Under the pieces are notes generated by a model. That model saw nothing but the letters and a program-made list of their open reading frames with translations. It had not been told where the DNA came from and made no database searches. Positions 29,713-40,359 of a stretch of 64,000 nucleotides of DNA are shown here, piece by piece. Source of the DNA: Bacteroidota bacterium (lineage in GTDB: Bacteria > Bacteroidota > Bacteroidia > 2-12-FULL-35-15); contig JAOQAE010000005.1 of assembly GCA_025963725.1 (NCBI GenBank), forward strand, positions 1-64,000, read 5' to 3'. Each line of letters begins with the position of its first letter. The first letter of the stretch is position 1. A program made the position numbers and the translations under genes.

Positions 29713-32130
29713 TTATTTCATCTTCACGATCTTCACCGGCGCATACGTTTCATTGCCGTTGGTAATGCTCACGAAATAGATGCCTGAGTTAAGAGTGCTG
29801 ATCGTCACCGAGCCTTTCTGCTGGCTGATCCTGCTGCTTTCGATCACTCTTCCGGTGATGTCCCTCACCGTGATCTCAGCGTTAGCCGCAAGCTTTTCCT
29901 TCACATCATAAGAAACCGTTGTTTCGGATGTGAAAGGATTGGGGTAAGCATGAATAGAAGAAGAATTCCCTTCATTCTCTGCAATGCCGATCACATTCCC
30001 TTCGGTGATCATGAACTGGTCAAAGCCAGCTTCCACGAGATGCCCGGGAGCATTGTCGGCCGTCCTCACAATTATTTTCATTGTTGCGGTTGGCGTGATG
30101 AAGCTGGAGATCGGGAATGATTTATAGACCCATGTGGAGTTATTAATAGTGTTGTAACGTGCAAAATCAATCACCACGCTGGTGATCCCATTGTTCAGCA
30201 GGATGGTCAATGAATCGTTTGGAACGCCTGTGCCTCCTGCATTGTAGAACCACCGCGTAAAGCTCACATACGGGTTGGTATAGGTGGAAAGGTCGAATAT
30301 CGGTGAAGTGAGCGTAGTGGAGCCGTTGTCAACATCATCCGAAGCTGCTGCGCCACCTGCATTTCCTGTTACATAGGCTTTGTTGCTGCAATCGAGGCTG
30401 TCGTCAACGCCCGGATTTGCATCCACGCCTGCATTAACCGTTCCTGCCGGAACGCCTCTTTCCCATGCGCCGGTAGCTGCTGTTCCTGTAACGGTCCAGC
30501 CGAAATTAAAAGCGAAATCATCATAATAACCCGCAGAAAGCTGCAATATCATCGGGCCAGCACCATAAGGGATCGTCTGATTCTGCGCACAGTTGGTCAT
30601 GTATCCCCAGTGTCCTGCAATGATCTCATAGCTGTCGGAATACACACCCGGAAGGCTGAAATTACCGGAAGCATCCGTGGTTGCCTGGTAATTGAAGTTG
30701 CTGTTCGCGATAGAAACATTGGCATTTGGGATAGGTGTGCCTGTTCCTGCCGTAACCACCTGTCCGGTTAGCGTAAAGGTAGGGATCGGCGATAAAGCGA
30801 CATCACGGATGGTTACAGCCGCAGCTGCGAGTGAAACTCCCGTTAATGTTTTCGGGTAATAGCCCGCTTTGGAATACGTAACGCTGTAGCTGCCGCCCGG
30901 CGAAGGGATTCCGGTTGCATAGCTTCCCGAAAGATTTGAATTATCGCTTACAGTAGTGGAAAGGATCTGGATAGTGGCGCCGTTGATGGCTAATCCGGTT
31001 ACCGAATCGGTAACGGTGCCTTCTAAGTAACATGCGCGAACATAGGTTGGTGTGAACACGAACAAGCCGTCTTCAATGTTCGAAGCAATGATAGTTCCGG
31101 AAGGCAGGTAAGGATAAACGCCCCAGGTGCCTTCAAATCCTCCGCCGCTTGCAGCGTATGTATCATAGTTTCCTACCTGTACGAGGTTCGTCGGACGGCC
31201 TGCATCCACAATGGTGAACCCATCCTTGTACCAGGAAGTAACGGCGTAATCATTTCCCGCAACACGGATGATATGCGTATTGTGAACAATGGATTGCGAT
31301 CCCGGGTTCGACTGGATCTTGTCGAGCTCAATAATATTGGCCGGGTTGGAAACATCATACGCAGTAAGCCATGAATCATCCACCTCATCGGTTGTGAATA
31401 AGATCCGGCTATTGGTCGACAGCCAGGTATTGTGCGTAAAGTTATTCGGTGTGTTCTGCGTAGCGATCTCAACCGGCGCCGATTTATTTGTAAAATCCAC
31501 GATGGCAAAATAGCCGGAATAGATATGCCCCGCATACAGCGTATCGTTGCGCACATAGCCATCATGCACATAGGCCTGGTTGCCCACGCCTACCTGGTAC
31601 TTACCTGCATAGCTCGGGTTCCATGGATCGGTAAGGTCAACCGCAATGGCGCCGCCGTTGAATAAATTGCTGCCATACAGGTAAGCGAAATGCCCATCGA
31701 TGTGCAAAGCATGGATCGTGTTCAATGTTCCTGCAATGGCACCGTCGCCGGTCCAGTTATGGTAAACAATTCCTGCCGTATCCGGAAGGCTGCTGAGGTT
31801 CACGATCTGTAAGCCGCCGCCGCCTTCGGTTGTAACGTATGCATATTTGCCGTATACTTTTATTTCCTTCCAGAGATTGTCCACATTCGGGATCTGCTTC
31901 ACCTCAACAGGAGTTGCCGGATTTGTAACATTCACGATCGACATGCCGGTTGAAACGCCAACAAGGGCGTATTCATTTCCGAGGGAATCCACATAGCCGG
32001 TAATATTGGCGCAGGTATGGCCGGGGTAGGTTAATTGTGAGCGAAGCGTCACATTCAGGTTTTGCGCAAAAGCACCTGCCGTGCTCATGCAGGCAAGTAC
32101 GGCACAGGCAATTAGTTTTTGTAATTTCAT
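29713..32130 (-). CDS. Secreted LVIVD-repeat (choice-of-anchor B) protein with T9SS sorting domain
   Basis: An 805-residue cell-surface or secreted protein. A signal peptide (1-22, ending AFA) precedes a beta-propeller-like region (about 25-360) with LVIVD-type repeats such as GMSIVNVTNPATPVEV, GGLQIVNLSSL and GFTIVDAGRPTNLVQV. Two carboxypeptidase-regulatory-like Ig modules follow (about 365-450 and 452-530; CYLEGTVTDSVTG and FTLTGQVVTAGTGTPIP), then a jelly-roll-like module (about 540-715), and a C-terminal type IX sorting domain (YPNPFTSETTVSYDV to the final lysines). It is exported by the type IX system. Function likely in adhesion or extracellular processing; unproven. Confidence 0.9.
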   Translation of the reverse strand: MKLQKLIACAVLACMSTAGAFAQNLNVTLRSQLTYPGHTCANITGYVDSLGNEYALVGVSTGMSIVNVTNPATPVEVKQIPNVDNLWKEIKVYGKYAYVTTEGGGGLQIVNLSSLPDTAGIVYHNWTGDGAIAGTLNTIHALHIDGHFAYLYGSNLFNGGAIAVDLTDPWNPSYAGKYQVGVGNQAYVHDGYVRNDTLYAGHIYSGYFAIVDFTNKSAPVEIATQNTPNNFTHNTWLSTNSRILFTTDEVDDSWLTAYDVSNPANIIELDKIQSNPGSQSIVHNTHIIRVAGNDYAVTSWYKDGFTIVDAGRPTNLVQVGNYDTYAASGGGFEGTWGVYPYLPSGTIIASNIEDGLFVFTPTYVRACYLEGTVTDSVTGLAINGATIQILSTTVSDNSNLSGSYATGIPSPGGSYSVTYSKAGYYPKTLTGVSLAAAAVTIRDVALSPIPTFTLTGQVVTAGTGTPIPNANVSIANSNFNYQATTDASGNFSLPGVYSDSYEIIAGHWGYMTNCAQNQTIPYGAGPMILQLSAGYYDDFAFNFGWTVTGTAATGAWERGVPAGTVNAGVDANPGVDDSLDCSNKAYVTGNAGGAAASDDVDNGSTTLTSPIFDLSTYTNPYVSFTRWFYNAGGTGVPNDSLTILLNNGITSVVIDFARYNTINNSTWVYKSFPISSFITPTATMKIIVRTADNAPGHLVEAGFDQFMITEGNVIGIAENEGNSSSIHAYPNPFTSETTVSYDVKEKLAANAEITVRDITGRVIESSRISQQKGSVTISTLNSGIYFVSITNGNETYAPVKIVKMK

Positions 32131-32238
32131 TTCAATTGAGGCGATTTAGTTTTTTTGAGGGATGATTAATACTCTAAGTACGGTATTTTATTCCTTAAAT
32201 ACAAAAAATAAAGATCATCGGTGCCGCTGGGTTTCGTG

Positions 32239-32554
32239 ACTCCTCCGGAGTACTTTATGCTAAGCAGGAATGCTGGTGGAACAGGCCGCTCCTATGGAGC
32301 TTGAAAACATCCCCCTAACAGGCTATTACAAACAGTTCGCTCCTATGGAGCGATCGTCGAGCCGGTCAGATCCACCTTCACTTTCATTCAGACAGCCCCA
32401 TGGGGGCGACCTGTTTATAGCTATGATCCGTCCACTAAGCTATTCAAGCTCCAGAGGAGCGGCCTGTTACTAACTTCGTTTTTAACACGGGCTCCGGAGG
32501 AGCCTGTTATTAATAACGACCTCCACGAAATGTTATAACGCGCTCCGGAGGAGC
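32239..32554. repeat. REPIN-like array 1: seven GCTCC-N3-GGAGC palindromes
   Basis: Seven 13-bp palindromes lie at 32239, 32288, 32339, 32395, 32448, 32491 and 32542, with loops TCC, TAT, TAT, ATG (in GCCCC/GGGGC form), AGA, GGA and GGA. The first three and last three are in opposite orientation around the central GCCCCATGGGGGC, and two of them extend into 26-bp inverted arms (AACAGGCCGCTCC / GGAGCGGCCTGTT). The whole layout recurs at 33838-34163. No gene is present in 32131-32606. Confidence 0.9.
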
Positions 32555-32606
32555 GCATTATTAAAAAACAGGTTGGGAATAAGTGAAAAAGCAAGTCGTT
32601 CGTTAA

Positions 32607-33713
32607 TTAAAAAGAAACTCCGACATTAAATAGCACTTCAAAACGGGAATACGTATTGTCCTCATCCCAGCGGAAGATCTCCTGCGCTTTGTCCATGGTG
32701 ATCTTTCTGCCTTCCAGGCGGATATAGCTGTTATCTGTAGGCTTGTATTCAACGCCAACGGTGGCGCCCCATCCTTTTAAGCCTGTCAGCATAAGGTTCT
32801 TATCGAGGATCACGCCGGATAAGAAGCCTTGGGAATCATTGAACATATCGCCCCTTCCATAAACAAAAACCTTTGTTGCCAACTCGTATTTAAGGCTGGC
32901 AAGTGCGCTGTACATCATCGCACTTTTTTTATTGTCGGTAATATCCGAATGCTCCTGTGTACCGTAGTCCGCTCCTACCTGTAATTTCAGCTTCTTAATG
33001 GCATAGTTGAGGTAAAGGTTGTGCATCATCCGGGTGTGCGAAACCGAATCGCCTTCGGGTGAATCATCCCCGATATAATTACAGTAATTGATATTGCCCT
33101 TATCGCCAAGCGCATAGCTTACCAGCATCCCGAACGACTTTTTATTATTGTTGTCATCGTGCATGTTATAGCCGTTCAGCAGGTAAAGGTTAATTGACAG
33201 CTTTTCGCTGGCATTGTAATTCAGGCGGATGCCGCTTTCATAATAGGGTTCAAGATATGTAGGCACAGAAACAGAGCTTGTAAAATTCTCTTTCGGCAGA
33301 AGGCCTTCGGTCCCGAAATGCGAGCGGAAGAATCCTGCATCGAGCCAGAGCTTTTTAAAAACTCTTATCCCTGCATGCGCTTCCATCAGGTAATTATAAT
33401 TAGCCGACCAGGTACTTTTCGCAAAATCCCCGAAATGAAGCGTGCCGGCTGCTCTTACTTTTTCAGCATCATAGCTGAACGTCAGCTGAAGGGTGTTCAG
33501 GCCAAACTGGTTGCTCTTTGGGGAAATGGAAGGAAATTTCTGGTAGTTACCGGCTCCTGTTGAATCGGTGTAATACGCGTAATATGCATCCGCATAACCG
33601 GTGATGGAAATAGGGATCTTTTTGGGGACAAGAGAATCGAGCGTTTGGGAACGGGAAACAAATGAAAGGCAAATAATGATGCAGGCAAGGGCAGCGTTTT
33701 TTGTCATGGCCAA
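32607..33713 (-). CDS. Outer-membrane beta-barrel protein (porin-like, BBP2 type)
   Basis: A 368-residue exported barrel. The signal peptide spans about 1-22 (ACIIICLSFVSRSQ); the start could also be the ATG two codons later. The mature protein begins ITGYADAYYAYYTD and shows a run of amphipathic strands with Tyr/Trp girdles, including WLDAGFFRSHFGTEGL and YLEPYYESGIRLNYN, and ends FEVLFNVGVSF with a terminal Phe. This matches the Bacteroidota outer-membrane barrel family (OmpL-like/BBP2), probably a channel of unknown specificity. It is flanked on both sides by matching palindrome arrays (32239-32554 and 33838-34163), which may have arisen by duplication around it. Confidence 0.82.
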   Translation of the reverse strand: MAMTKNAALACIIICLSFVSRSQTLDSLVPKKIPISITGYADAYYAYYTDSTGAGNYQKFPSISPKSNQFGLNTLQLTFSYDAEKVRAAGTLHFGDFAKSTWSANYNYLMEAHAGIRVFKKLWLDAGFFRSHFGTEGLLPKENFTSSVSVPTYLEPYYESGIRLNYNASEKLSINLYLLNGYNMHDDNNNKKSFGMLVSYALGDKGNINYCNYIGDDSPEGDSVSHTRMMHNLYLNYAIKKLKLQVGADYGTQEHSDITDNKKSAMMYSALASLKYELATKVFVYGRGDMFNDSQGFLSGVILDKNLMLTGLKGWGATVGVEYKPTDNSYIRLEGRKITMDKAQEIFRWDEDNTYSRFEVLFNVGVSF

Positions 33714-33837
33714 TAAGGGATGTGATTTGTGGCCAAACTTAGAACAATTTAATTGAACAATAACAACGGGCTCTATAAAATAATTCGTTCCTCGGAGCTC
33801 TGCTGATCAAAGGGAGCACATTTGTTATTAATAATTT

Positions 33838-34163
33838 GCTCCTCCGGAGCACAGTGCTGGGTTCGGTACCAGCGAACAGGCCGCTCCTCTGGAGCTTGAA
33901 AACATGCTTATAATAGCAGTGTTACAAACAGTTCGCTCCTATGGAGCGATCGTCGAGCCGGGCATTTGTCTTTAATCCACCTTCACTTTCATTCAGACAG
34001 CCCCATCGGGGCGGCCTGTTTATAGCTATTCCGTCCACTAAGCTATTCAAGCTCCAGAGGAGCGGCCTGTTAAGCGGAATACATTCATCCACAGCCGGCT
34101 CCGGAGGAGCCAATTATTAATAATAAACCGCAGGAACCCATACAGTGAGCGCTCCGGAGGAGC
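33838..34163. repeat. REPIN-like array 2: seven palindromes in the same order as array 1
   Basis: Palindromes lie at 33838, 33883, 33935, 34000, 34051, 34098 and 34151, with loops TCC, TCT, TAT, ATC (GCCCC/GGGGC form), AGA, GGA and GGA. Sequence between them also matches array 1 (for example CCACCTTCACTTTCATTCAG and GTCCACTAAGCTATTCAAG). The two arrays are therefore direct duplicates about 1.6 kb apart, separated by the porin-like gene. Confidence 0.9.
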
Positions 34164-34193
34164 GCATTATTAACCTAACTAATACAAATAAAA

Positions 34194-34217
34194 AAATCCC
34201 GCTCAGCAACGGGATTT
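34194..34217 (-). terminator. Intrinsic terminator of parC
   Basis: AAATCCCG (34194-34201), loop CTCAGCAA, CGGGATTT (34210-34217) directly after the parC stop; on the minus strand the stem is followed by a T run. Confidence 0.8.
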
Positions 34218-34223
34218 GTATTA

Positions 34224-36935
34224 CTAATCAAAATCAAGGGTCAGGTCCTGGCCGTCATCCTTGCCTTTTTTCTTTTTCTTTTTTTCTTCCGATGGCAGCT
34301 TGATCTCGGCATTGATCTGCTGGTCGATCGAGAGCGTCATCTTTTCCTTTACAGGCTCCTGTGCTTTTTTGATGGCTTCCAGCGGCGACATTCCGCTCTC
34401 TTCAAATTCCTCCAGCACATCTTCCTCTATATGCACCTCCACAGGCGGCAGCAGGTTGATCTCTTTTACCTTCGCGTAAGAAAGCTTATTTCCTTTCGCC
34501 TTCAGGCCTTTGACCTCGATGAATTCATTCAGCTTCACCTGCTCATTAGGCAGCTCTTTATCCTTCACCTTCGAAAATTTCACCTCCACCACCGGCAGCT
34601 CTTCTGTTGTCACGATCTCGATGCGTGATCCTTCCGCTTCCGAAATGAACAGCACCTTTTTATCGGTTGGCTCCACCATGAAGCGCTTCACAAAATAGGT
34701 TTTGCTTTCACCATCAAGATAAATGGCAGCCACAGGCCTTTTCGGGTTGAACTTTTCGATCAGCACCATATCCTGGTCGAAATGCGTGGACACATCAAAG
34801 CCGGTCAGCCTGTAATATCCGCCCTGGGTAATAGTAAGGATCTTGTCTTCCGGGCCGAAGCTTCCGAGGAAGGTTCCGCGCTTATCGGTATTGAGGCGCT
34901 GCACGGTATCGTCGAACCAGATATCGCGTGCGCCAAGAGTAGATACTCCTTTTTCTTTTAAGATGATCTTCTTAATGGCATATTTGGTCACCACATTTCC
35001 CATCGAGTTTCTGCCTTTTACGGCCAGCTCGGAGAAGTTGAGGTCCCACTGCACTTTACGCAGTCCCGGCATTGGCTTCAGCTGCACCTCCACAATTTCC
35101 GCTTCCCCGTTCGGGTTGGCAGTAAAGTAAAGCACCTCGGAGCCTTTGGTTCCTTTTGTAAGGTCGTATTGCTTATCGCGTGTTACACCTGTTACAGGGA
35201 AGCGCTTCATGAACACGCTGCCGGATTTCCCGTCGCGGTAGATCATGTTGTACACCGTACGCTCATCGTTCTTTTTGAAAACGGCAATGTGGATCAGGTC
35301 CTTCCCAACAAATGCCTTGTCGGCCACCTTTGAAACCTGCATGGTACCATCCTTGCGGAATACAATGATGTCGTCGATGTCGGAACATTCGCCTACGAAT
35401 TCATCCTTTTTCAGTCCATATCCGGCAAAGCCTTCTTCACGGTTCACGTATAGCTTCTCATTCGCAACCACAACGCTGGTGGCCACAATCGTTTCAAACG
35501 ATTTGATCTCCGTTTTACGCTCACGCCCTGCACCGTATTTCTTTTTCAGGTTCTTGAAATAGTCGACAGCAAAGTCAACAATGTTTGCCAGGTGGTGATC
35601 GATCTCTTTAATGCGTGCATCCAGCGATCGCATTTTCTCATCGGCCTTCGCGGAATCGAAGCGCGTGATGCGGATCATCGGGATCTGTGTCAGCTTTTCG
35701 AAATCCTCGTTGGTGATCTCGCGGATGAACTGCTTCTTGTATTTTGCAAAACGCCCGTCGAGGTAGCCAAACAGGCTTGGCTTGTCGGAGTAATTCTTAA
35801 AGTCGATGTACATCTCATCCTTGATGAAGATCTTCTCCAGGGATGCGAACATGTATGATTCCTGCAATTCAGCTTTCTCTATCTGGAGCTCTTTCTTCAG
35901 CAGGTCAAGCGTTTGATGTGTGGAAAGGCGCAGGATCTCGTTCACGCCAACAAACCTCGGCTTATCATGCTCGATGATGCAGGCATTCGGGGAGATGGAA
36001 ACCTCGCAATCCGTGAAGGCATAAAGCGCATCAATGGTTTTGTCAGGCGAAATGCCCGGAACGAGGTGGATCACGATCTCCACATTTTCGGAGGTGTTAT
36101 CCTCCACCTTTTTGATCTTGATCTTTCCTTTGTCGTTTGCGGCAACAATGGTATCGATGAGCGATCCGGTGGTGGTACCGAAAGGGATCTCGTTGATCAC
36201 AAGTGTTTTTTTATCGAGCTGGGAGATCTTCGCCCTTACCCTTACTTTTCCTCCGCGTAATCCGTCGTTGTAATTGCTGAAATCCGCCATTCCCGCCGTC
36301 GCGAAATCTGGTAGAATATCAGTCCGTTTGCCGCGCAAAATGGCAACCGATGCATCGCACAGCTCATTGAAATTATGAGGCAGCATCTTACAGGCTAACC
36401 CTACCGCAATGCCTTCAACACCCTGTGCAAGCAGCAGGGGAAATTTTACAGGCAGCGTTTCCGGCTCTTTGTTCCTTCCATCGTAGCTCAGCAACCAGGT
36501 GGTGGTTTTCGGGTTGAACACCACTTCGAGCGCGAATTTGGAAAGGCGCGCCTCGATGTAACGCGGAGCTGCTGCCCTGTCACCGGTAAGGATATTGCCC
36601 CAGTTTCCCTGCGTGTCGATCAGCAGGTCTTTCTGCCCGAGTGCAACCAGCGCATCGCCAATGCTGGCATCGCCGTGCGGGTGATATTTCATGGTATGCC
36701 CGATGATGTTCGCCACCTTGTTGTAGCGGCCGTCGTCGAGGTCGTTCATGGAATGAAGGATCCTCCGCTGAACAGGCTTAAGCCCGTCTTCCACGTATGG
36801 AACAGCGCGCTCTAAAATAACATAGGAGGCATAATCGAGGAACCAGTTCTGGTACATTCCCGATACATGGATAATGTTGTGAAGCTCTTCCCCTTCACCG
36901 TTCATCTCTTCATTTATAATTTCGTCGTTACTCAT
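34224..36935 (-). CDS. parC: DNA topoisomerase IV subunit A (type IIA, GyrA/ParC family)
   Basis: A 903-residue DNA breakage-reunion subunit. The winged-helix region with the catalytic tyrosine is intact: Y126 in AAAPRYIEAR, preceded by the QRRILHSMND and HPHGDASIGDALV blocks. A coiled-coil arm follows (about 380-480) and the C-terminal half (about 500-810) is the beta-pinwheel that wraps DNA, with strand repeats such as DDIIVFRKDGTMQVSKVADK. A charged Lys-rich tail (EEKKKKKKGKDDGQ) ends the protein. It relaxes and unlinks daughter chromosomes with ParE. The gene lies 16 bases after a T9SS protein gene that separates it from parE; all three read leftward. Confidence 0.95.
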   Translation of the reverse strand: MSNDEIINEEMNGEGEELHNIIHVSGMYQNWFLDYASYVILERAVPYVEDGLKPVQRRILHSMNDLDDGRYNKVANIIGHTMKYHPHGDASIGDALVALGQKDLLIDTQGNWGNILTGDRAAAPRYIEARLSKFALEVVFNPKTTTWLLSYDGRNKEPETLPVKFPLLLAQGVEGIAVGLACKMLPHNFNELCDASVAILRGKRTDILPDFATAGMADFSNYNDGLRGGKVRVRAKISQLDKKTLVINEIPFGTTTGSLIDTIVAANDKGKIKIKKVEDNTSENVEIVIHLVPGISPDKTIDALYAFTDCEVSISPNACIIEHDKPRFVGVNEILRLSTHQTLDLLKKELQIEKAELQESYMFASLEKIFIKDEMYIDFKNYSDKPSLFGYLDGRFAKYKKQFIREITNEDFEKLTQIPMIRITRFDSAKADEKMRSLDARIKEIDHHLANIVDFAVDYFKNLKKKYGAGRERKTEIKSFETIVATSVVVANEKLYVNREEGFAGYGLKKDEFVGECSDIDDIIVFRKDGTMQVSKVADKAFVGKDLIHIAVFKKNDERTVYNMIYRDGKSGSVFMKRFPVTGVTRDKQYDLTKGTKGSEVLYFTANPNGEAEIVEVQLKPMPGLRKVQWDLNFSELAVKGRNSMGNVVTKYAIKKIILKEKGVSTLGARDIWFDDTVQRLNTDKRGTFLGSFGPEDKILTITQGGYYRLTGFDVSTHFDQDMVLIEKFNPKRPVAAIYLDGESKTYFVKRFMVEPTDKKVLFISEAEGSRIEIVTTEELPVVEVKFSKVKDKELPNEQVKLNEFIEVKGLKAKGNKLSYAKVKEINLLPPVEVHIEEDVLEEFEESGMSPLEAIKKAQEPVKEKMTLSIDQQINAEIKLPSEEKKKKKKGKDDGQDLTLDFD

Positions 36936-36951
36936 ATCCGCAGTAAAATTC

Positions 36952-38475
36952 TTATTGTTTTATGATGATTTGATGCTTTACTCCAGCTTCTGTGGTCACT
37001 TTCAGCACATAACAGCCGCTGGCTATTGCTGTAAGATGGAGGGACACTTCACTTTGTGTATCCAGGTTTTCAGAACTGATCAGCTCCTCACCTGCCATGG
37101 TGAACACTTCAGCCCGGAGCAGTTTATTACCATTGGACCTGACCGATATTTCCGAACTAAACGGATTTGGATATACACCGGGGCCGCTTTGGAAAAAGGA
37201 TGATGACGCCGTTGCCGTTGCAATATCACAGCCGGAAAAAAGCCAGCCGGAATTGTTTCCGAGGTCAGCGCTGTTGCTGCCAGCAAAGTAAACGCCGCTC
37301 CCCAGGGCATGTACGTTTCTTAATTTTAAATAATCAAGGCATAATGAATCGTCAGGCAATAAAAGATAATTGGCGGACGATCCCCAATATTCGGTGATGG
37401 ATATTGTATCTGCGGGGCCGCTGTTTATTTGCAGTACATCGCCTACGGTCAATGTATCGCAGTCAAATGTATAGTCGGAGTTACTTCCAAAACCGGGTGA
37501 AAGGATGTTTTCAAGAAGCAGTGTATCATAAGAAAGCCGTTCACCGGAAGTAGTGTTCGCGATCATCCCACCGGCATAAAATTCCGCTTTATGAATCCGC
37601 CCGCTCATTGTAAATTCCTGGAATGTACCATAACTGACCAGCTTGTCCACTTCACAGTTAATGCCCAACATTCCGGGCGTAGGCGCGAGCGTATCAAGCT
37701 CCACGTAATGGTAATGCTGGTTTACGCCACCGTTGAACACCAAGGCAACATTATCACCTGCGGTAAGTATGATCGAAGCTGAATCGGCGTCGATATAATG
37801 ATTAGATCCTGTCACCTCAAAGCCTCCCCCCGCATCAATCACCTCCACAACCGATGTTCCCAGCATCAGTGACCTGAAAGCTGTTCCCGGAACCTGGAAA
37901 TTATGGGTCCTTACAGGTTGATCCGCCGTAAAGAACCTTCCCCTTTCCATACTTATATAATTCGCATCAAGAGGGCTGAGCAATGTCCATGTTCCGGTAC
38001 CTTTAAATGACACTGTTAGTATATCCAGCGGATCACCCCAAAAAGATCCGGTTATATGCAGATCGATCGTATTGGAAGGGCCGGCGGACATAAATACAAT
38101 GTTGCAAACAAGTCCGAGATCAGGACAGGTTTGAAAAGAACCGTATACAAGCAAAGGCGAGGCGCCGCCGGTTTGATCCGACAAAAGCGGCGATAAGGAG
38201 GCATAGCTGAGACCCGCTGTAAATAGGATGCTATGACACCTTGCTGTGTCATAAAGATCGATCCTGGCATCTATACAGCCCGGATCCACGATTACATTGT
38301 CAGCAGGTCCGGGGATCGAGCCGGGATGAATGCTTCCGCCGGAAGTTGTCACCCAGTTGGATGTATCTGCCCAATCATAATTCAGGGCAGCATAATCCGG
38401 CTTCCAGAAAAAGTTGGCGGCAGGGATAGATCCACAAGTGGTCATTGCCAGAAATAACAAAAGCTTCAGCTTCAT
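36952..38475 (-). CDS. Secreted T9SS-type protein inserted between parE and parC
   Basis: A 507-residue exported protein. A signal peptide (1-20, ending PAA) is followed by a beta-helix-like region rich in short strands and Gly/Asp turns (for example NVIVDPGCIDARIDLYD, SGRIHKAEFYAGGMI), as in G8/pectate-lyase-like adhesins; the start resembles FWKPDYAALNYDWADTSNW sequences common in Bacteroidota surface proteins. The C-terminus is a type IX sorting domain (GVYPNPFSSEISVRSNG ... GCYVLKVTT). It starts six bases after parE and ends 16 bases before parC, so it is inside the topoisomerase IV operon. No functional link to the topoisomerase is evident. Confidence 0.85.
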   Translation of the reverse strand: MKLKLLLFLAMTTCGSIPAANFFWKPDYAALNYDWADTSNWVTTSGGSIHPGSIPGPADNVIVDPGCIDARIDLYDTARCHSILFTAGLSYASLSPLLSDQTGGASPLLVYGSFQTCPDLGLVCNIVFMSAGPSNTIDLHITGSFWGDPLDILTVSFKGTGTWTLLSPLDANYISMERGRFFTADQPVRTHNFQVPGTAFRSLMLGTSVVEVIDAGGGFEVTGSNHYIDADSASIILTAGDNVALVFNGGVNQHYHYVELDTLAPTPGMLGINCEVDKLVSYGTFQEFTMSGRIHKAEFYAGGMIANTTSGERLSYDTLLLENILSPGFGSNSDYTFDCDTLTVGDVLQINSGPADTISITEYWGSSANYLLLPDDSLCLDYLKLRNVHALGSGVYFAGSNSADLGNNSGWLFSGCDIATATASSSFFQSGPGVYPNPFSSEISVRSNGNKLLRAEVFTMAGEELISSENLDTQSEVSLHLTAIASGCYVLKVTTEAGVKHQIIIKQ

Positions 38476-38481
38476 GGGCAG

Positions 38482-40359
38482 TTATAGTGCATTTTTAACT
38501 TCTTTCTCTATTTCTTCCACAAGGTCTTTCTCCACCACGAGGTTATCGATGATAAAATCCTGGCGCTCCTGGGTGTTCTTGCCCATGAAGTAGCCCAGCA
38601 TGTCAATGATGCTCCTGTCCTTGCCAATGATCACAGGATCCTTGCGCATATCCTTGCCGATGAACAATTTGAACTCATCCGGCGAGATCTCTCCCAAACC
38701 TTTGAATCGTGTGATCTCCGGCTTTACGCCTAATCGTGCAATCGCATTTCTTCTCTCTTCTTCGCTGTAGCAGTATACCGTTTCCTTCTTGTTCCTTACC
38801 CTGAACAATGGCGTTTGCAGGATGTACACATGCCCGTTCTTCACCAGGTCGGGGAAGAACTGCAGGAAAAAGGTCATCAGCAGCAGGCGGATGTGCATGC
38901 CATCCACATCGGCATCGGTAGCCACCACAATGTTGTTGTAGCGCAGGTTCTCGATCCCGTCCTCGATGTTCAAAGCAGCCTGCAGCAGGTTGAACTCTTC
39001 GTTTTCATACACGATCTTTTTGGTGAGTCCGAATGCGTTCAGCGGCTTTCCCTTTAAGCTGAACACAGCCTGCACGTTCACATCGCGTGTTTTGGTGATG
39101 GAGCCGCTTGCCGAATCTCCCTCGCAGATGAACAGCGTGGTATCCAGCTTGCGCTCATCGTTGGAGTTAAAGTGCACGCGGCAGTCGCGTAATTTCTTAT
39201 TATGAAGGTTTGATTTTTTTGCACGCTCTCTCGCCAGCTTCTGGATGCCCTGCAGATCTTTGCGTTCCCGCTCGCTTTGCTGGATCTTCTGGAGGATGGA
39301 CTGCGCCACTTCCGGGTTCTTGTGCAGGAAGTTATCGAGCTCCGTTTTCATGAAATCGCCGATAAAGCTCTTCACGGAAGGGCCTTTTGGCCCGATCTCC
39401 TGTGATCCCAGCTTGGTCTTGGTCTGCGATTCGAACACCGGCTCCTGCACTTTTATGCTCACTGCGGCAATAATGGACGTACGCACATCCACTGCCTCAA
39501 AATCTTTCTTGAAAAATTCCCGAATCGTTTTTACCACCGCCTCGCGAAATGCTCCCTGGTGGGTCCCCCCCTGCGTGGTATGCTGTCCGTTCACGAATGA
39601 ATAATACTCTTCACCGTACTGCTGGTTGCTGTGGGTCATCGCCACTTCAATGTCATAGCCTTTCAGGTGAATGGTCGGGTACAGGATCGGGCCGTCGATA
39701 TTCTGCGTGAGCAGGTCAAGCAATCCGTTCTCGGAATGGAATTTCTGTCCGTTGTAATTGATGGTGAGGCCTGTGTTAAGGTACGCATAGTTCCAGAGCA
39801 TCTTCTCCACATACTCATTGATGAAGTGGTAATTGCCGAAAACCGCCTCATCGGGCGTAAAGGTCACCAGCGTGCCCTTGCGTGCCTCCGAAGGCGTGAT
39901 CTTATCCTCTTTCAACAGCTTTCCTTTGGAGAACTCTGCGGATTTGGTCTGGTTATCGCGGAATGCCTGTACGCAAAAGTGGCTTGACAATGCATTCACC
40001 GCTTTTGTACCCACACCGTTCAGCCCGACCGATTTCTTAAATGCCTCCGAATCGTACTTTGCACCTGTATTGATCTTCGATACAACATCTACGAGCTTGC
40101 CCAAAGGGATCCCGCGGCCATAATCGCGCACGCGCACCGTTTTATCCTTTATGGTGATATCGATCGACCTGCCGTTCCCCATTACAAACTCATCGATACA
40201 GTTATCCAGCGTTTCTTTCAACAGGATATAGATCCCGTCATCGGGCGAAGATCCGTCGCCCAGCTTTCCAATGTACATTCCCGGACGGAGGCGGATGTGT
40301 TCGTTCCACTCCAGCGTCCGGATGCTGTCTTCGTTATATTTTACTTCCTTTTCTGACAT
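38482..40359 (-). CDS. parE: DNA topoisomerase IV subunit B (type IIA ATPase, GyrB/ParE family)
   Basis: A 625-residue ATPase/Toprim subunit. The GHKL ATPase site shows [15 protein letters not shown] and [14 protein letters not shown]; the transducer carries [18 protein letters not shown]; the Toprim domain has EGDSASGS and the metal-binding DADVDGMHI. The length fits ParE (GyrB is usually 640-800). With ParC it forms topoisomerase IV. It is the first gene of a leftward operon with the T9SS protein and parC. Confidence 0.95.

Follow-up and report, generated by a model that had tools for sequence, protein, structure and literature searches.

Among the described repeat systems closest to the arrays analyzed here is that of REPINs and their RAYT (TnpA-REP) transposases, the REPtron of Pseudomonas and E. 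coli, with which they share short intergenic palindromes in around 100 copies, inverted sets able to form long hairpins, a single transposase gene flanked by inverted copies and a hairpin specific to its own transposase. They differ from REPIN-RAYT pairs in the transposase itself, which here is an IS200-like protein of subclass 1.2 and not a RAYT of subclass 2.x, in the lack of a GT[AG]G foot, and in their 5-bp stems, same-strand doublets spaced by ~51 bp, (C/T)TA(C/T) tetranucleotide at position -13 and nested arrays of two types. IS200/IS605 elements (IS608, ISDra2) also have a HuH/Y1 transposase, one-strand hairpins and a tetranucleotide upstream of the hairpin, which in IS608 resembles TTAC, whereas in the present system tnpA is surrounded by inverted sets, each locus has many hairpins, and near-identical IS copies are absent from the genome. 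The tandem REP clusters of P. fluorescens SBW25 (PMC3116915) are comparable as ordered tandem arrays that insert into existing elements, but they are spaced by 72 or 112 bp, against ~51 bp here, and differ as well in transposase class and in nested mirror symmetry.

Our comparison with RAYT groups rests on Quentin et al. (2018, PMC6006769), in which subclass 1.2 of the TnpA-Y1 transposases is presented as related to IS200 but without IS properties and is entered as 'no' for REPs in Table 1; the automatic REP search of that work accepted only hairpins with a GT[AG]G foot and a basal stem no shorter than 7 nt. The transposase reported here resembles subclass 1.2 in its WQ and Y...Q..HH motifs, its length of ~150 aa, its single copy and its occurrence in Bacteroidota. 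Unlike the subclass as described in 2018, with no REP partner, it has cognate hairpin arrays, as do 68 of its best 80 relatives. Our literature search, which covered a collection of open-access papers, returned no earlier description of such arrays in Bacteroidota.

The window, a stretch of 64,000 nt from a Bacteroidota genome, carries two inward-facing hairpin arrays (array 1, 32239-32554; array 2, 33838-34163), and the preliminary description was right in placing two ordered arrays around a porin gene (Table 1). Exact GCTCCN3GGAGC palindromes occur 11 times in the window, against 0.03 expected from shuffles, and GCCCCN3GGGGC twice. Each array comprises seven hairpins with a 5-bp stem and a 3-nt loop, as previously counted; their arms, however, are not uniformly GCTCC as had been stated, since array 1 opens with ACTCCTCCGGAGT (window sequence, 32239-32251). 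Hairpin order is identical in the two arrays, and the loops read TCC, TAT, TAT, ATG, AGA, GGA, GGA in array 1 and TCC, TCT, TAT, ATC, AGA, GGA, GGA in array 2, so that the order first proposed as common stands but the loops diverge at one base in B and at one in the GCCCC hairpin. The latter had been taken for the array centre, a reading that we reject: it is C', the first hairpin of the right half and the mirror of C, and the two halves meet at the unique spacer that separates C from C', which is the actual centre. The 26-bp inverted arms already recognized in that description consist of AACAGGCC, a hairpin and TTGAA, together with their mirror, and show identities of 100% and 96%. The predicted single-stranded folding of both arrays is much stronger than that of shuffles (z of -7.6 and -13.9), and an Rfam search of positions 32000-34400 returned no match.

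Table 1. Hairpin units of the two arrays and the gene between them (window positions).
Feature	Position	Strand	Basis
Array 1, outer type-II hairpin, A-like, ACTCC-TCC-GGAGT	32239..32251	+	sequence; inverted pairing with A'
Array 1, type-I unit B, AACAGGCC-hairpin GCTCCTATGGAGC (32288-32300)-TTGAA, left 26-bp arm	32280..32305	+	
Array 1, unit C, TTAC (32326-32329) exactly 13 nt upstream of hairpin GCTCCTATGGAGC (32339-32351)	32326..32351	+	
Array 1, unit C', hairpin GCCCCATGGGGGC (32395-32407), reverse-strand CTAT (32417-32420)	32395..32420	-	
Array 1, unit B', TTCAA-hairpin GCTCCAGAGGAGC (32448-32460)-GGCCTGTT, right 26-bp arm	32443..32468	-	
Array 1, type-II unit A2', hairpin GCTCCGGAGGAGC (32491-32503), reverse-strand TTAT (32513-32516)	32491..32516	-	
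Array 1, type-II unit A', hairpin GCTCCGGAGGAGC (32542-32554) plus GCATTATTAA	32542..32564	-	
Array 2, type-II unit, GTTATTAATAATTT plus hairpin GCTCCTCCGGAGC (33838-33850)	33824..33850	+	
Array 2, unit B, left 26-bp arm, hairpin 33883-33895	33875..33900	+	
Array 2, unit C, TTAC (33922-33925), hairpin 33935-33947	33922..33947	+	
Array 2, unit C', hairpin GCCCCATCGGGGC (34000-34012), reverse-strand CTAT (34022-34025)	34000..34025	-	
Array 2, unit B', right 26-bp arm, hairpin 34051-34063	34046..34071	-	
Array 2, type-II unit A2', hairpin 34098-34110	34098..34127	-	
Array 2, type-II unit A', hairpin 34151-34163	34151..34173	-	
BBP2-type beta-barrel porin gene between the arrays; neighbour, outside the element	32607..33713	-	PF07642, E 6e-55

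The same organization extends to the whole genome (4.79 Mb in 7 contigs), which contains 103 GCTCCN3GGAGC hairpins against none for the reversed control. These are grouped in ~24 arrays that follow a fixed grammar of four recurring unit types, A-A2-B-C, a unique centre and C'-B'-A2'-A', of which partial forms are common. In the type I doublet, B (AACAGGCC-hairpin-TTGAA) is followed ~51 nt on by C ((C/T)TA(C/T)-AAACAGGTC-hairpin), and in the type II doublet A (TTAATAATTC-hairpin-TC) is followed, again after ~51 nt, by A2 (CTATTAATAAT..hairpin); type I, with an AACAGG foot, is often nested within type II, with a TTAATAAT foot. Neighboring hairpins lie 48-54 bp apart in 48 of 71 same-strand cases, and all 14 opposite-strand neighbors face inward. 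The arrays are intergenic at 24 of 24 positions (16 between tandem and 6 between convergent genes, none between divergent genes and 2 at contig ends). With this order fixed genome-wide, the arrays are more regular than REP clutter, as initially suggested, and the census revealed nothing like a random scatter of palindromes without conserved order. Being multicopy, intergenic and composed of inverted hairpin sets whose members fold together into one long hairpin, they can be termed REPIN-like in a broad sense. Contig C3 starts and contig C5 ends inside or beside an array (loci L018 and L025); hence, the arrays probably break the assembly and the copy number is a lower bound.

An IS200/IS605-like transposase gene, which the preliminary description had marked as something to look for, is indeed present. 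The sole Y1_Tnp gene of the 4.79-Mb genome (G000, contig C6, 383923-384378; 383920-384378 with the stop codon) starts 9 bp from an array, which in this genome is found on the 5' side only. Its product (P0001, hereafter TnpA) is intact, single-copy and 152 aa long, carries the motifs DHTH, WQ and YILNQAEHH, and agrees with subclass 1.2 (WQ, Y...Q..HH, ~148 aa, low copy), its HuH motif being DHTH rather than DH[IV]H. Its relatives of known structure in the PDB are, by sequence, IS200/IS605 transposases, and near-identical copies of a complete IS are absent from the 4.79 Mb, which hold one Y1_Tnp gene. TnpA scores 66.5 bits against the IS200 model NF033573, above the cut-off of 55, and 35.6 bits against the REP-associated tyrosine transposase model (REP_Tyr_transpos, NF047646), below the cut-off of 80; its signature is Y..NQ..HH instead of Y..NP. 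On these grounds, its identification as a classical RAYT is rejected, and the original suggestion of a non-autonomous element driven by a RAYT is upheld as to an IS200-type transposase partner but not as to the RAYT.

These results also bear on the simplest alternative, namely that the arrays are ordinary REP/BIME clutter of a classical RAYT of subclass 2.x, which we regard as quite improbable. Intergenic, multicopy palindromes in inverted pairs, with a transposase flanked by inverted copies, are what has been reported for RAYTs (PMC2817692, PMC3116915), and RAYT-like genes of another subclass (Y..NP) do occur in relatives, some of them with their own hairpins. Nevertheless, no RAYT-type gene was found in the genome, the lone Y1_Tnp falls short of the REP_Tyr_transpos model, and GT[AG]G within 0-2 nt of the hairpin foot was seen at 0 of 131 hairpins in the genome and at 1 of 368 at tnpA loci. 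Moreover, 5-bp stems, same-strand 51-bp doublets and a tetranucleotide at -13 fall outside the REP rules of PMC6006769. The classical REPs of RAYT subclasses 2.2, 2.4, 2.5, 2.7 and 2.8 are therefore set apart on two defining tests, the foot and the protein family, both of which the classical REP/RAYT assignment failed. The RAYT-like (Y..NP) genes of related genomes (L229-L248) have hairpin families of their own, with arms TAGCG, AGGCG, GAGCG and TAGGC; such RAYT-like Y1 loci proved unsuitable as a hairpin-free control, since several bear their own hairpins with other arms.

A profile search of ~85,000 genomes returned many relatives of TnpA, of which the best 80 tnpA loci were kept. At least two hairpins with the same arm lie within 900 bp of tnpA at 68 of these best 80 loci, all in other genomes, a figure to be read in the knowledge that the 80 are the best matches to a profile built partly from hairpin-bearing members; 20 shuffles of each locus gave a maximum of 1 hairpin. 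In a second, less selected sample the same was seen at 7 of 20 loci, which indicates that the link between tnpA and hairpins is strong yet not universal. The arms vary among loci (GCTCC, ATCCC, ACCCC, GCCCC, GCACC, GTCTC, GCAAC and others), while loops and ~50-bp spacing remain constant and a CTAYAA-like hairpin flank is found at most of them. The TnpA tree requires 26 changes of arm, compared with 43.5 +/- 1.4 after shuffling (minimum 40 in 200 shuffles). Hairpins are oriented one way upstream of tnpA (50 vs 6) and the opposite way downstream (41 vs 9), so that, as in REPINs, the gene is flanked by inverted copies of the same hairpin. Copy number behaves similarly: GCTCC hairpins are more numerous in genomes with a GCTCC-armed TnpA (p 3e-5; 1.5e-4 on adding two further genomes), ATCCC copies are likewise higher in genomes with an ATCCC-armed TnpA (p 0.008), and GTCCC copies are present in relatives with a GTCCC-flanked TnpA and missing from the genome analyzed here. 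Given the genome-wide order, the adjacency to tnpA and arms that follow the protein, the best reading is that the arrays are REP/REPIN-like non-autonomous clusters belonging to an IS200-type HuH/Y1 TnpA of subclass 1.2, and we consider this likely.

A candidate cleavage site emerges from the same hairpins. For 155 of 331 hairpins, a [CT]TA[CT] tetranucleotide starts exactly 13 nt upstream, whereas any other offset accounts for 3-21, and the site is present at 56 of 85 loci. Within the genome the site is a property of the second hairpin of each doublet (C, 28/42; A2, 18/27) and is mostly absent from the first (B, 2/40; A, 3/22), a pattern that would suit an outer border at B and A. By analogy with IS200/IS605, we infer that (C/T)TA(C/T) at -13 may be where TnpA cleaves and that blocks of ~50 nt can be excised and re-inserted. 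The building block is a small hairpin (5-bp stem, 3-nt loop) with (C/T)TA(C/T) 13 nt upstream; blocks of like orientation follow one another at ~51 nt in the doublets B-C and A-A2, two sets being opposed across the unique centre. In the most probable mechanism, TnpA would bind the hairpins on single-stranded DNA (the lagging-strand template), cleave at the upstream tetranucleotide, and excise and re-insert one or more blocks of ~50 nt, and re-insertion of this kind might give rise to head-to-tail blocks and to insertions into existing arrays. Near-perfect tandem blocks of ~50 bp are seen at L110 (Desulfonema magnum; 10.4 and 11.9 copies), L073 (6.0) and L143 (5.6). At L143 (2625-3712), the two sides of tnpA differ, one bearing tandem GCTCC blocks and the other tandem GCCCC blocks.

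The surroundings of the two window arrays can be followed in sister genomes, where, in line with the synteny comparison initially proposed, zero or one array is found at the locus. G028, whose topoisomerase IV A is 94% identical, has 165 bp between the LVIVD and topoisomerase IV A genes, with neither porin nor array. In G018 (topoisomerase IV A 96%), the same interval contains amt, the porin gene and one array, which is the counterpart of array 2. The ammonium transporter gene amt (PF00909) is absent from the entire genome analyzed here, and array 1 (32239-32564) occupies the place of amt in G018 (L181, 9321-10544). The B..B' cores of arrays 1 and 2 (32280-32468 and 33875-34071) are 93% identical to each other and ~79% identical to the G018 core, and the flanks on either side drop to ~70-75%. 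These comparisons indicate that array 2 is inherited and that array 1 is a younger local copy of its B..B' core. As array 1 is missing from G018 and sits at the amt place, the porin was not carried between paired ends, and the capture of the porin between copies, as first suggested, is rejected by the porin and single array of G018, next to amt.

For the same reason, a composite mobile element carrying the porin and bounded by the two arrays is highly improbable: two near-identical direct copies do flank one gene, and the porin is missing from this position in G028, G009, G032 and others, but the state of G018, with the porin and one array only, beside amt, contradicts it unless array 1 was secondarily lost there. 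Array 1 is also younger than the porin at the site; furthermore, the two arrays are repeated directly, and a second copy of the array-porin-array arrangement was not encountered. The origin of array 1 is less one-sided: it could stem from a B..B' unit that moved, or from recombination or gene conversion. We rate as an even chance that the duplication around the porin reflects homologous recombination or gene conversion between arrays, which would also have removed amt, and not transposition. Array 1 lies in the place that amt has in G018, and the shared tract stops where the sequence common to all arrays stops, at the B and B' hairpins; the tract, however, ends exactly at AACAGGCC and GGCCTGTT, which would equally be expected had a B..B' unit moved. 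Arrays 1 and 2 are the sole pair with a near-identical centre, as would befit recombination; genome-wide comparison yielded no other, and there is therefore no sign of recent whole-array movement.

Other sites include arrays that are absent from G028 and G009, or that are of a different type in G018, the closest of the relatives available, where the two sites examined hold other array types (L024, L033); array 2 and further arrays are common to this genome and a sister species. It counts against the preferred reading that no clean insertion was seen at base-pair resolution, the intergenic DNA of the available relatives being too diverged. The GCTCC-flanked tnpA of G018 (C36, 81203-81643; L217) is interrupted by an internal TAA, which probably makes it a pseudogene, although the arrays of that genome remain, and G032, a 98%-complete genome, has 69 GCTCCN3GGAGC hairpins and no detected subclass-1.2 TnpA; hence, arrays outlive their transposase. 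Under the preferred reading of non-autonomous clusters belonging to TnpA, the arrays would now be mainly old and inherited, array 1 being the younger exception.

Such persistence lends itself to another interpretation, in which the arrays are mainly host-function elements under selection, either mRNA 3'-end stabilizers or gyrase/nucleoid sites like the BIMEs of E. coli, and the adjacent transposase is a relic. It would accommodate the intergenic position of all 24 arrays, none between divergent genes, their strong folding, the arrays common to a sister species and the hairpins that remain in G032 without TnpA. We nonetheless hold it to be unlikely, in that arms change along the transposase tree and array content at one site differs between sister species, and it leaves unexplained the cognate arms around tnpA in unrelated phyla. 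A host role and mobilization by TnpA are not mutually exclusive.

A broader proposal, which we put forward as a tentative possibility, is that the TnpA proteins of subclass 1.2 constitute, across several phyla, a hairpin-array system of their own, in which the enzyme would excise and re-insert ~50-nt single-stranded blocks at (C/T)TA(C/T) sites 13 nt upstream of the small hairpins, arrays would grow block by block in the manner of a tandem array and not through movement of REP doublets, and arm and enzyme would co-diverge as a recognition code. On the preferred reading, a subclass set apart in 2018 as lacking IS properties and REPs would gain DNA partners, with a common anatomy in Bacteroidota and, as database records label them, Verrucomicrobia, Ignavibacteria, Desulfonema and others. 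The many natural enzyme/arm pairs would provide material on how HuH transposases read hairpins and on how REP-like repeats spread, and the array in place of a lost ammonium-transporter gene hints that arrays may contribute to gene loss.

Several further loci deserve mention. In the relatives G030, G003 and G008 (L185, L186 and L187), the topoisomerase IV B and A genes are separated by a subclass-1.2 tnpA and its GCTCC arrays, at a site (compare window 34224-40359) that adjoins the place of the two window arrays and may reflect shared ancestry or an insertion hotspot. At L056 (1396-1950), hairpin sequence is in frame upstream of the usual start, pointing to a possible N-terminally extended TnpA, and the possible extension holds two APEG-type motifs. 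Finally, L114 belongs to a genome (G066, recorded as a Verrucomicrobiota MAG) with 315 GCTCCN3GGAGC hairpins, three times the number in the genome analyzed here.
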